Below, one piece after another: positions 20,965 through 26,065 of a stretch of DNA of 64,000 nt. Made by a program: the position numbers and the translations under genes. The stretch is taken from the NCBI RefSeq assembly GCF_014524545.1, contig NZ_CP053557.1:2815501-2879500 (forward strand), in the 5' to 3' direction. The first letter of the stretch is position 1. Every line of letters begins with the position of its first letter. The notes beneath the pieces are model-generated. The model did not search any database, was not told where the DNA came from, and saw only the letters and a program-made list of their open reading frames with translations. The stretch comes from Exiguobacterium sp. Helios. Its GTDB lineage: Bacteria; Bacillota; Bacilli; Exiguobacteriales; Exiguobacteriaceae.

Positions 20965-21019
20965 GAAAGTGGTTATTTAGTACTAGTAAGCTTATCGGCA
21001 AGAATAGGAGGTGAGGCCC

Positions 21020-21439
21020 GTGGAACGTGCTCTCGGAAAAAAAATCATGAAATTGCGTAAACAACATCAGTTCACCCAAAAACACTTGGCTGAGCGATGC
21101 GGAGAAACGGTCACTTCGATTTCCGCTTACGAGCGTGGTCAACGGATGCCAAATACGCAAACATTAGAACGGCTTGCTCTTGCTTTGAATACGACTGTGA
21201 TTGATTTGATTGATCCCCAATATGTCCAACATCCTTCATTACAAGAATTTATGGCTCAATCCCTCGAACCGACGCAACCGCTCGATTTCAAGCTCGTCCT
21301 GGAAGATGTTCTCGTCCACTTGACGCTCTCACCGGAAGTCTACTTCAATGGTCGTCTGCTGACACAAGAGGTCCGTGATCATATGGCGACAACCATTAAT
21401 CAAGCACTCCAACAAGGTTTGCAATCGATTAAGATTTGA
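21020..21439 (+). CDS. XRE-family transcriptional regulator
   Basis: 139 residues. The N-terminal helix-turn-helix (about 8-62) reads LRKQHQFTQKHLAERCGE.V.SISAYERG.R.P...TLERLALAL, a typical Cro/CI-type domain. The C-terminal 70 residues are not recognised; they may form a dimerisation or ligand domain. The start is GTG 21020, seven bases after AGGAGG. It has its own promoter and terminator, so it is a single-gene unit. Target unknown; nearby candidates are the VanZ gene divergently upstream and the peptide locus downstream. Confidence 0.85.
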   Translation: MERALGKKIMKLRKQHQFTQKHLAERCGETVTSISAYERGQRMPNTQTLERLALALNTTVIDLIDPQYVQHPSLQEFMAQSLEPTQPLDFKLVLEDVLVHLTLSPEVYFNGRLLTQEVRDHMATTINQALQQGLQSIKI

Positions 21440-24062: not shown

Positions 24063-24123
24063 AAAAAAAGCTTCAAACCTGTGACGGAATGAAGCCACGT
24101 CAGCAAGAGACGTCATCATGAAG
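24063..24123 (-). terminator. Hairpin with U-run between peptide gene and downstream genes (candidate attenuator)
   Basis: On the minus strand CTTCA (24123-24119) pairs with TGAAG (24075-24071) and TGACG (24115-24111) with CGTCA (24086-24082), followed by CTTTTTTT. It begins in the last codons of the 48-residue gene. A partial terminator here would make the peptide more abundant than the downstream enzymes. Confidence 0.55.
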
Positions 24124-24262
24124 TTTTTAATTCTCGTTTCGCCGTCGGTTTGATCCGGTCCATTTCCCGACTTGCCAAGGGTGCGACCGAGACAGTAGCA
24201 ACATTTAAGCACCAGCCGTAAGATGTCATCGTCCGGCGCGATTCTTTAAAGGTGAGATTCAT
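24116..24262 (-). CDS. 48-residue peptide, candidate precursor
   Basis: Short gene with a strong ribosome binding site (AAAGGGG, eight bases before ATG). The product has a charged N-terminus (FKESRRT), a more hydrophobic middle with aromatic residues and one cysteine (TSYGWCLNVATVSVAP, about 13-28), and a basic C-terminus (KPTAKRELKTS). There is no signal peptide or double-glycine site. It resembles no peptide I know. Its place at the head of the unit, the hairpin after it, and the PlcR-like regulator divergent to it make a regulated peptide precursor plausible. It could also be a small regulatory protein. Confidence 0.55.
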   Translation of the reverse strand: MNLTFKESRRTMTSYGWCLNVATVSVAPLASREMDRIKPTAKRELKTS

Positions 24263-24352
24263 AGGAGTTACCCCTTTCATTCGTTTAAAATGGCAGACAA
24301 CACGTTGACGACTTTTTGAACTAAAAGTTTGGTATCCGATCCTGTTCCCTCT

Positions 24353-24358
24353 TATAAT
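24353..24358 (+). promoter_or_regulatory. Promoter -10 of the PlcR-like regulator gene and nearby inverted repeat
   Basis: A consensus TATAAT is preceded at 18 bases by a weak -35 TTGGTA (24329-24334). An 11-base inverted repeat AACT-AAA-AGTT (24319-24329) abuts it and lies between the divergent start codons. It is a candidate operator for the regulator. It is not a PlcR box of the Bacillus cereus type. Confidence 0.4.
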
Positions 24359-24409
24359 GGAAAAGGGTATCGTTTTCTCAAATCCACTGGACAGAAAGGA
24401 CAGAACCCG

Positions 24410-25297
24410 ATGGATCAATTCACGTCACCGCAGATTGGTCTGGCCCTTCGCCGCCTTCGCAAGAAACATAATCTGACGCAGAAGGATTTGGCGAACGGAA
24501 TTTGCAGCCAGGCGGAAATCAGTAAAATTGAAAGTGGGACACATTCTCCGACCGTTGATTTGCTTTTTGCTTTATCACGACGATTACAGGTACCGATTAC
24601 TGTTTTTTTAGATCGTACAGAACAATATGATTCTTTACGTACAATAGATGATTCATTACTAATGAAGTTCAGAAACTTGAAATATAAAGAAATCTATAAT
24701 GAAACCAGATATTTTTTAGAAACTTCTCAATTCACAGAAGAAGCTTCACTACTCTATCAGTACTATTTCCACCTATCATCATACCGATTGAAAAAAATCG
24801 ATTTTCGAACGTGTATCGTCGAGCTTCAAAAACTGTCTGACCTCTATTCCACAACTTATTATTCTCCTAAAATGTTGATTCGATTAAAATCAGCGATTGC
24901 AACGATGTATTATGAGAATAAAAGTTTTAAGCGTGGAATATCTGTTTATCAAGAATTACTTAAATTAAATTTTGATAACGACGAATTGATGATTGATAGA
25001 ATCAGAATTTTATACAATTTTTCTAAAATCTTACTCGATATGGACCAAATCTCAGAAGCTTTGATTTACATCGAAGAAGGAATTCGAGACAGTTTAAAAT
25101 TCAAGGATATGTCCTTGCTTGGTCAATTATTATTTCAAAAAGCTTCTGCTTTAGAATTCAGCTATGCAGATCTTTCAGATATAAAAGAAGCTTATACAAA
25201 AGCGTATCTACTTTTTGATTTGTTAGGAATGAAAGAATATAAAGAAATTATTGTTACTAATAAAATTCACTATATTCAAACTAACACCATCATTTAG
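24410..25297 (+). CDS. PlcR-like quorum-sensing regulator (XRE helix-turn-helix plus TPR, RRNPP family)
   Basis: 295 residues, close to the length of Bacillus cereus PlcR (285). The N-terminal helix-turn-helix (about 9-62) reads LRRLRKKHNLTQKDLANGICSQ and AEISKIESG. The rest is helical TPR repeats. From memory of PlcR, several segments align: YKEIYN, the YLKK(V/I)D....CI(L/V)EL(K/Q)KL block, GQL(Y/L)(Y/F)Q and the C-terminal (D/E)AY.KA..(F/L)FD(I/L)L.M..YKE. PlcR binds an imported heptapeptide (PapR) in its TPR groove and then activates transcription. ATG 24410 follows AAAGGA. The gene ends three bases before the end of the convergent tandem-repeat precursor gene, which would encode the cognate signal. 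AT-rich relative to its neighbours. Confidence 0.8.
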   Translation: MDQFTSPQIGLALRRLRKKHNLTQKDLANGICSQAEISKIESGTHSPTVDLLFALSRRLQVPITVFLDRTEQYDSLRTIDDSLLMKFRNLKYKEIYNETRYFLETSQFTEEASLLYQYYFHLSSYRLKKIDFRTCIVELQKLSDLYSTTYYSPKMLIRLKSAIATMYYENKSFKRGISVYQELLKLNFDNDELMIDRIRILYNFSKILLDMDQISEALIYIEEGIRDSLKFKDMSLLGQLLFQKASALEFSYADLSDIKEAYTKAYLLFDLLGMKEYKEIIVTNKIHYIQTNTII

Positions 25298-25300
25298 AAT

Positions 25301-25813
25301 TTACACTGTGTATTTAAATGAAAATTCTGTTGGCAAGTTGTTTCCAGCTACGTCACGTTTCACTGAGAATTCTGTTGGCAAGTTGTTTCCGGCTACATCA
25401 CGCTTCACTGAGAATTCTGTCGGAAGGTTGTTTCCGGCTACATCACGCTTCACTGAGAATTCTGTCGGAAGGTTGTTTCCGGCTACATCACGTTTCACTG
25501 AGAATTCTGTCGGAAGGTTGTTTCCGGCTACATCACGTTTCACTGAGAATTCTGTCGGAAGGTTGTTTCCGGCTACATCACGCTTCACTGAGAATTCTGT
25601 CGGAAGGTTGTTTCCGGCTACATCACGCTTCACTGAGAATTCTGTCGGAAGGTTGTTTCCGGCTACATCACGCTTCACTGAGAATTCTGTCGGAAGGTTG
25701 TTTCCAGCTATGTCAGTTTTGATTAATACACTTCCTGAATGAATGATTCCAAATGCTGAAAGTGTGATCCCTACGCTACCGATAGATAAAAGTACTTTCT
25801 TTTTCAAGTTCAT
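25301..25813 (-). CDS. Secreted precursor with nine tandem PapR-like peptide units
   Basis: 170 residues. A Sec-type signal peptide (about 1-31: basic MNLKKK, then a hydrophobic core) is followed by nine copies of a 15-residue unit, RDVAGNNLPTEFSVK; the first reads TDIAG and the last ends SFKYTV. Apart from the signal peptide there is little else. Each unit contains NNLPTEF, which shares L-P-x-E-F with the PapR heptapeptides ADLPFEF/SDMPFEF that activate PlcR. The unit boundaries carry basic residues (VKRD) that could be protease sites. ATG 25813 follows AGGAGG by eight bases. The gene converges on the PlcR-like regulator gene. Likely role: export and extracellular processing into several copies of a signal per chain. 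A surface or adhesive repeat protein is the alternative, but the size is small and there is no wall anchor. Confidence 0.8.
   Translation of the reverse strand: MNLKKKVLLSIGSVGITLSAFGIIHSGSVLIKTDIAGNNLPTEFSVKRDVAGNNLPTEFSVKRDVAGNNLPTEFSVKRDVAGNNLPTEFSVKRDVAGNNLPTEFSVKRDVAGNNLPTEFSVKRDVAGNNLPTEFSVKRDVAGNNLPTEFSVKRDVAGNNLPTEFSFKYTV
25318..25722. repeat. Nine tandem 45-base repeats within the signal precursor gene
   Basis: Each unit starts with GAGAATTCTGT on the plus strand. The middle units are nearly identical, differing mainly at CGTTTC/CGCTTC; the outer ones carry TTGGCAAG in place of TCGGAAGG and CCAGCT in place of CCGGCT. Near identity at silent positions shows recent expansion or gene conversion, and copy number may vary between strains. 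Confidence 0.95.
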
Positions 25814-25881
25814 AATGAATAACCTCCTAATTTTTTTGTCTAGCTCTGTAACAACATCATATAACCTTAGACCCCCCTCGG

Positions 25882-25902
25882 ATATTCGAATACGAATATT
25901 CG
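25882..25902. promoter_or_regulatory. Tandem palindromes upstream of the signal precursor gene
   Basis: TATTCGAATA (25883-25892) and CGAATATTCG (25893-25902) are two perfect 10-base palindromes side by side; together they also contain ATATTCG-AATA-CGAATAT. They lie about 70 bases upstream of the precursor start codon, where an activator could bind. The 299 bases from the start codon to the next gene hold nothing else coding. Confidence 0.45.
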
Positions 25903-26065
25903 ATACATTTTGCACATTATTTACACTTACCATACCTTTCGTCTTAGGTCATAGGTCCCGAAACGTGCATATTATTTACATTTTATCCACCTTTGTGTCG
26001 ATAAAGTGTATGAAAATAGATTTTTTAGAATATTCACTCACTCTCATCTTTATGATTCTTTCGTA

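Follow-up and report, generated by a model that had tools for sequence, protein, structure and literature searches.

The closest described relative of the system reported here is the PlcR–PapR pair of Bacillus cereus, in which papR lies downstream of plcR on the same strand. PapR is described as carrying one C-terminal signal (ADLPFEF), the pair as falling into four pherotype classes (PMC6568020), and PlcR as having a 16-bp box, TATGNAN4TNCATA, and a regulon of 45 genes (PMC3717773). In a second B. cereus pair, PlcRa–PapRa, the one signal, CSIPYEY, is internal rather than C-terminal and papRa lies upstream of plcRa (PMC3519770). Repeated pheromones, with up to six copies per precursor, are reported for AimR, NprR, PlcR and Rap systems, 3 of 15 large PlcR-associated precursors being repeated (PMC9765709); up to eight copies are mentioned in a paper that reports release and activity of duplicated Phr pheromones and calls the products, processing and function of repeats unresolved (PMC11343458). 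Duplicated signals have been proposed to help receptor specificity diverge (PMC5199041), and ComR–ComS systems have transferable receptor–signal alleles with a constant DNA-binding half (PMC4072589). Here we describe a locus in a 64,000-nucleotide stretch of Exiguobacterium sp. Helios (the window; positions 2815501-2879500 on the main contig, the genome being 3.15 Mb in size), where a gene for a PlcR-type regulator faces a gene for a precursor with nine signal-like units (Table 1). We read the two as a chromosomal PlcR-type peptide signalling pair, present in every examined Exiguobacterium genome, in which the regulator would activate transcription from a palindromic operator and whose sensing half and signal array would be exchanged between species as a cassette; to this reading as a whole we give a probability of roughly 0.8. 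Below, G000 is the window strain's own genome and other G-numbers are other Exiguobacterium genomes, 19 in total.

Regulator and precursor are convergent, and 3 bp separate their stop codons. Coordinates and stops thus bear out the earlier note on this DNA, which had described a PlcR-like gene ending three bases from a convergent gene for a 170-residue protein of nine 15-residue units, each with NNLPTEF; the note's start at 24116 has to be moved, since the regulator's ATG lies at 24410 and the sequence before it is unrelated. A terminator scan found none between the two stops, and the transcripts may therefore overlap. The regulator matches RNPP_C (3.7e-37) and HTH_3 (4.4e-14) in Pfam, both above cut-off; its closest solved relative is PlcR (2qfc/3u3w, phmmer 2.2e-42), with the next best match at 3.3e-5; and with an AlphaFold model built on a six-sequence alignment (mean predicted local distance difference test score 88, predicted template-modelling score 0.82) Foldseek places PlcR chains at all of ranks 1–5 (top 3u3w, 9.4e-14). 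Profile, solved-structure and fold searches thus all give PlcR, and the regulator is an RRNPP receptor of the PlcR subfamily, the membership on which the earlier note had staked its idea. Residues 1–49 are identical in all six aligned orthologs. Lys89, Gln237 and Tyr275 of PlcR are described as contacting the glutamate of PapR (PMC6568020); Gln237 and Tyr275 are kept in all 19 orthologs, as are Asn201 and Lys204, and PlcR Asn159 is Ser in all 19.

In the precursor, the NNLPTEF units, identical and each made of a core and a linker, recur at exact 45-bp steps, and Tandem Repeats Finder scores the array at 693 (period 45, 8.7 copies, 97% matches), the two other tandem arrays in the window scoring 73 and 72. 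Open frames on the plus strand also cross the repeat because the unit length is divisible by three; the real gene lies in the minus frame, because this one has a ribosome-binding site and a hydrophobic leader (highest 15-residue mean hydropathy 1.97, residues 7–21) and because a leader with one or more LPxEF-like units was found in all 19 genomes. Weak precursor matches to APC_15aa, TraK_C, DUF5064 and DUF6004 in Pfam, and to an anti-repressor family and one unknown family in PHROG, were rejected as effects of repetition, since no stretch passes alone.

Orthologs of the regulator, with 57–68% identity, occur in all 18 other Exiguobacterium genomes, hence in 19 of 19 with the strain's own, and are absent from 19 of 19 sister-genus genomes at E 1e-30. 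Beside the regulator, a convergent repeat precursor with the leader MNLKK or MNLKN and LPxEF-like units was seen in 18 of the 19; in G013 a contig end interrupts the array, so that units next to the receptor and the leader with four units are on separate contigs, and in G007 the receptor contig stops about 80 bp past the match and a different contig opens with the leader and first unit, so that leader and LPxEF-like unit(s) are found in all 19. Comparing repeat number among relatives, as had been suggested, gave 9, 4, 3, 2, 5, 8, 7, 5, 5, 6, 8, 6, 3, 6, 3, 7 and 5 units in the 17 complete arrays (92 in total), a range of 2–9 with the window array as the largest; stop-to-stop distances at these 17 loci are -9 to 31 bp. 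A precursor-only search, which missed G007 (array cut after one unit) and is blind to very different precursors such as that of the plasmid described below, gave matches in 18 of 19 genomes, all at the regulator locus; repeat homologues lacking an adjacent regulator, which the earlier note had named as speaking against a signalling pair, were not seen among them. Across 17 genomes there are 12 main cores (NNLPTEF, NGLPLEY, NDLPAEF, KGLPLEY, KEIPFEF, KELPFEF, ERIPLEY, ERLPLEY, DLLPPEH, GHLPPEY, TELPYEY and QDLPYEY), in arrays that were first picked by any repeated five-residue word or leader and not by the LPxE motif. All fit [LI]PxE[FYH], with Pro and Glu constant and Phe, Tyr or His last, and the likeness to PapR first noticed in NNLPTEF thus holds for every one of them when set beside the ADLPFEF/CSIPYEY-type pattern.

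The cores are also kept alike within arrays. In the window array the nine units differ from their consensus core by 5 synonymous and 0 non-synonymous codon differences, and over the 17 arrays the seven-residue core shows 99 synonymous versus 6 non-synonymous differences from each array's consensus, against 35 versus 26 in those linkers that have each array's commonest length (core versus linker, Fisher 1.2e-8). Without G016, whose allele is shared with G011, the counts are 91:4 and 29:18 (Fisher 4.3e-7). A single core type fills 13 of 17 arrays, and G004, G005, G011 and G016 have one variant unit each. The silent changes imply that the arrays are old enough to have gathered them, the core nonetheless being kept, and because the cores stay alike the divergence proposal of PMC5199041 does not by itself explain these arrays. 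We suggest that multiple identical units would raise the signal yield per translated chain. Alternatively, extra copies may have no dosage function, the array growing and shrinking by replication slippage while one working unit is enough, as the spread from 2 to 9 units among related species and the single C-terminal units of the strain's own plasmid pair and of two other Bacilli (see below) might suggest; but single-unit arrays are found in 0 of 17 complete chromosomal arrays and the cores are strongly constrained, so that we regard this as a possibility of real weight that we nevertheless lean against. Since the genus provides a natural series of 2–9 units, the dose question is directly testable.

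A likely operator accompanies the pair. In 17 aligned precursor promoters an invariant TATTCGTATTCGAATA is followed by the conserved TATATGATG, and in G007 and G013 the palindrome starts 85 bp before the leader ATG. Perfect copies of the 16-bp pattern TATTCGN4CGAATA occur in all 19 genomes, with two sites in 17 of them and three in G000 and G015, and the reversed-pattern control gives 0 perfect sites in 19 of 19. The second shared palindrome starts 93–96 bp before the ATG of a gene for 265–266 residues in all 19 genomes; the third sites (G000 C1:2246207 and G015 C23:67036) are without counterpart among the perfect sites of other genomes. With up to two mismatches allowed, the window holds 2 matches versus 5.1 expected by chance, so we give weight to sites only where they are perfect and conserved. 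In the own genome 14 sites match with at most one mismatch (3 perfect; reversed control 5); of the 11 that have one mismatch, 10 fall within open frames of at least 80 codons. An intergenic one-mismatch site upstream of a secreted-looking lamin-tail-domain protein (L052) was dropped as an operator target: in 17 of the 18 other genomes (G013, where the gene match is partial, was left out) there is no counterpart with at most one mismatch, 5 having two mismatches and 12 three or four. A few further operator targets may exist.

We predict that the regulator binds TATTCGN4CGAATA, from which autoinduction and control of the 265-residue gene would follow. The pattern shares the 16-bp length and 6-4-6 layout of the B. 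cereus PlcR box (PMC3717773), and the conserved element of the precursor promoter is not TATGNAN4TNCATA itself (the B. cereus box was not searched genome-wide). A search of the minus strand upstream of the precursor gave no sigma-70-like -35/-10 pair; the palindrome stops 19 bp short of the conserved -10-like TATATG, at about the place where a bound activator would stand in for a -35 element. An operator so close to the promoter would also suit the reverse action, in which the regulator represses the precursor and the 265-residue gene until imported peptide releases it, much as pheromones inhibit Rap and AimR; given the missing -35/-10 pair, the spacing, and the fact that the closest relatives are PlcR, an activator, we consider repression unlikely and retain activation as the probable mode. 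The 265-residue gene is the predicted output of the circuit. Its protein was found in 19 of 398 sampled Bacilli genomes (at most six candidates per genome scored, here and in the regulator search below), all of them Exiguobacterium, and searches against Pfam, NCBIfam and solved structures gave no significant match to it. Read as a hairpin followed by a weak T tail, the operator palindrome was also classed as terminator-like (window 25878-25903).

That receptor and precursor are partners, as the earlier note had supposed, is argued by the co-variation of signal type with the receptor's tetratricopeptide repeat (TPR) sensing domain. Over 17 genomes (G007 and G013, whose arrays are cut by contig ends, were left out), signal-core similarity correlates with TPR identity at r 0.70 and with identity of the flanking DNA at -0.02; controlling for the flanks leaves a partial correlation of 0.70, which 0 of 5000 permutations reached. 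Keeping one receptor per 85% identity group (14 genomes) gives r 0.66 (0 of 5000 permutations), one per 70% group (10 genomes) gives 0.44 (15 of 5000), and taking the 265-residue protein as species proxy gives 0.72 (0 of 5000; 18 genomes, G007 being left out here and in the identity matrix).

Nucleotide identity along the locus is mosaic. G000 and G014 are 99% identical in the 150-base windows that begin at -75 and at 0 relative to the regulator start codon, fall to 55–72% from +150 on and lower still across the arrays, which differ in unit number, and are back at 98% in the window from +1425. Sliding identity in five pairs is mostly 90–100% up to the helix-turn-helix (HTH) domain, with values as low as 81% in a few upstream windows, then about 46–72% over the TPR part, frequently lower where arrays differ in length, and mostly 90–100% again from the leader or promoter on. 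Flanks at least 85% identical were found in 21 of 136 genome pairs, yet 19 of these (flanks 87–98%) share only 54–64% of their TPR nucleotides; the remaining two, G009–G014 and G011–G016, have the same signal within each pair. In the TPR tree, built from all 19 receptors, G012 joins G008 and G018 (all NDLPAEF; starred branch), G002 groups with G015 (TELPYEY and QDLPYEY; starred), G001 with G004 (starred), and G003 with G005 (both KEIPFEF; support 85/87). The NDLPAEF receptors of G008, G012 and G018 share 73–76% in the TPR versus 73–78% in the 265-residue marker, and G011 and G012 are 100% alike in the marker and 47% in the TPR. The approximately unbiased (AU) test rejects a nine-genome and a four-genome species group in the TPR tree (p 1.1e-5 and 3.6e-131), both of which were chosen after the identity matrix was seen; each is separated from the other genomes by a branch in every one of the 200 bootstrap trees of the 265-residue protein. 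We read the TPR half and the signal array as a pherotype cassette that appears to have been exchanged horizontally between species repeatedly. Very fast co-evolution of the two in place, between conserved flanks, would likewise leave the TPR part and the leader as the fast-changing parts between close genomes, but it sits badly with receptors that group by signal type across species (NDLPAEF in G008, G012 and G018; G011 versus G012) and with the AU rejections, and we think it very improbable. Finally, common as other kinds of repeat proteins are, we give hardly any credence to a surface, adhesive or antimicrobial repeat protein lying beside a PlcR-like regulator by chance, since the two genes are adjacent in 18 of 19 genomes and the precursor search gave no match at other loci of the genus, since the core resembles PapR and co-varies with the TPR domain, and since the promoter has a palindrome like the PlcR box.

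Several points weigh against a cassette-borne PlcR-type pair as we read it, besides the late choice of the AU species groups. On the receptor side, Foldseek TM-scores to PlcR are moderate (0.62–0.66 by query, with root-mean-square deviations of 8–13 Å), PlcR Lys87 is replaced by Arg (14 orthologs) or Gln (5), and Lys89, the third PapR-Glu contact, is kept in just 2 of 19 orthologs and is not supported as a conserved contact. On the signal side, SFKYTV trails the last unit so that no signal copy stands at the exact C-terminus and release needs cuts on both sides of a unit; 1 of the 92 units (in G004) has Lys instead of the core Glu; and the synonymous differences within arrays may reflect gene conversion besides selection. 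The operator is tied to the regulator by position and PlcR-box likeness, and one of the cluster paralogs described below could bind it, as 63 of 64 share the recognition-helix residues. As for the exchange, little can be read from the low correlation of signal with HTH identity (0.13), as the HTH hardly varies. Genome pairs lack independence, a single protein and local flanks served as the species proxies, and a star marks just 1 of the 15 inner branches in the 265-residue protein tree.

Related receptors occur elsewhere in these genomes. A separate tandem cluster of 1–6 PlcR-like genes is found in 19 of 19 genomes (64 genes in total including truncated copies; L080-L098), ending in the own genome (G000:C1:1982365-1984136) beside a flavodoxin-fold gene. 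Some cluster members are broken in G002 and G012. Among the 64 paralogs, 58 have His at 237, 36 keep Tyr275 and 63 have the recognition-helix SQAE[IL]SK of the orthologs, the remaining row being truncated there. Scanning 22–149-codon frames for [LIMV]PxE[FYH], which could miss other motifs, gave no convincing precursor in the clusters; LPxEF-like motifs in open frames running antisense to cluster receptors were set down to coincidence, given their location within conserved coding sequence. The strain's own plasmid (L099:2064-3088; G000 C2:69715-70575) carries a PlcR-like gene with a convergent, overlapping 49-residue precursor whose single C-terminal unit ends KTELPFEH. Outside the genus, 7 of the 398 sampled Bacilli genomes match the regulator at 1e-25: two (L102 and L103) have a convergent single-copy precursor ending TELPFEN or IKLPFEF; one (L105:2647-2820) has a small exported-looking peptide with two AGTLPDIY units, convergent and about 290 bp from a PlcR-like gene, possibly a different signal code; and at the other four loci no precursor was seen. 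The single-copy pairs of the plasmid (TELPFEH) and of L102 and L103 resemble the array locus in having the precursor convergent beside the regulator and differ from it in their one C-terminal copy. The convergent layout is thus not confined to arrays and may be older, and a single-copy convergent pair is perhaps the ancestral form of the arrays.

The Exiguobacterium locus shares with PlcR–PapR of B. cereus the regulator family and fold, an LPxEF signal and several pherotypes (PMC6568020). It departs from the canonical organisation of a single C-terminal signal encoded by a same-strand downstream gene (one signal, PMC6568020) in having 2–9 internal units and a convergent gene, and also in lacking a conserved Lys89, in its box and in having two shared operator sites instead of a regulon of 45 genes (PMC3717773). 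The statement in the earlier note that PapR has one signal on the same strand therefore stands for B. cereus and fails for the subfamily, in view of precursors with up to six copies (PMC9765709) and of the convergent single-copy precursors in Bacilli and on the own plasmid. CSIPYEY of PapRa fits [LI]PxE[FY] and is likewise internal, but it is one signal encoded upstream of its receptor gene (PMC3519770). Repeat precursors of RRNPPA systems (Phr105, Phr3T and some associated with NprR, AimR or PlcR) also hold several identical or near-identical pheromones per exported precursor; unlike them, the precursors described here reach nine units, are found as arrays in every examined genome of one genus, and keep the core alike rather than diversified. 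ComR–ComS pherotypes of Streptococcus suis belong to another RRNPP branch, with XIP an N-terminally truncated ComS and no convergent array unit. Searches of an open-access library gave no report of the Exiguobacterium system, and the genus name is absent from the main text of PMC9765709, PMC10075063, PMC11343458 and PMC12700828. Multi-copy RRNPP precursors and transferable pherotypes are already known, and the Exiguobacterium system is a variation on these.

We propose that the precursor is exported by way of its Lys-rich hydrophobic leader and that outside the cell each unit would be excised, probably by cuts that follow the Val/Leu/Ile-Ala at the end of a linker and precede the next linker, yielding a peptide of 7–8 residues ending Leu/Ile-Pro-x-Glu-aromatic or His. 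The peptide would be re-imported via an oligopeptide permease, which is plausible given the 8 SBP_bac_5 proteins encoded in the genome, and would occupy the TPR groove of the regulator, which would then bind TATTCGN4CGAATA and activate both the precursor gene, in a positive feedback, and the one distant 265-residue gene. The tail-to-tail layout sets the sensing half and the array back to back between conserved arms, the DNA-binding domain on one side and the promoter on the other, so that one recombination tract could replace both partners. It is tempting to speculate, at slightly less than even odds, that this layout is itself an adaptation: a cassette between homology arms that would let lineages swap the whole recognition code in one recombination event, with unit number (2–9) as a dose dial, the 1–6 orphan PlcR-like receptors with near-same DNA-recognition residues listening in or competing, and a single genus-specific gene as the core output. 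A swap of receptor and signal would let lineages change the chemical word by which they recognise their own kind, and a receptor half exchanged with its signal as a block would illustrate cleanly how pherotypes evolve in an environmental genus, one in which a predicted operator and two predicted target genes can be tested together.

Table 1 Features of the signalling locus and of the distant gene with a shared palindrome. Positions are those of the window unless a genome coordinate is given.
Feature	Position	Strand	Basis or remark
PlcR-type receptor/transcription regulator, 295 residues	24410..25297	+	ATG 24410, stop TAG 25295-25297; N-terminal HTH, C-terminal TPR sensing domain
Conserved DNA-binding part, left conserved arm of the predicted cassette	24410..24600 (end approximate)	+	ortholog alignment, nucleotide window identity
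Variable, putative specificity cassette: regulator TPR half, signal array and most of leader	24600..25800 (edges approximate)		G000 versus G014 window identity
Putative signal precursor, 170 residues: leader and nine 15-residue units	25301..25813	-	ATG at 25813, stop TAA 25301-25303
Nine NNLPTEF signal cores, 45-bp spacing, linker SVKRDVAG	25322..25702	-	
Hydrophobic Lys-rich leader, likely Sec signal peptide	25736..25813 (end approximate)	-	hydropathy
Precursor ribosome-binding site AGGAGG	25823..25828	-	invariant in 17-locus promoter alignment
Conserved TATATGATG, probable -10 region	25855..25863	-	invariant in 17/17 aligned loci
Operator palindrome TATTCGTATTCGAATA (minus strand), predicted regulator binding site	25883..25898		perfect in 17/17 aligned precursor promoters
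265-residue gene	L039:623-1420 = G000:C1:1965162-1965956	-	same palindrome in promoter, 19/19 genomes

About 3 kb upstream of the pair, the window also encodes a small XRE-type regulator of 142 residues (21011-21439; Pfam HTH_3, 3.4e-14).

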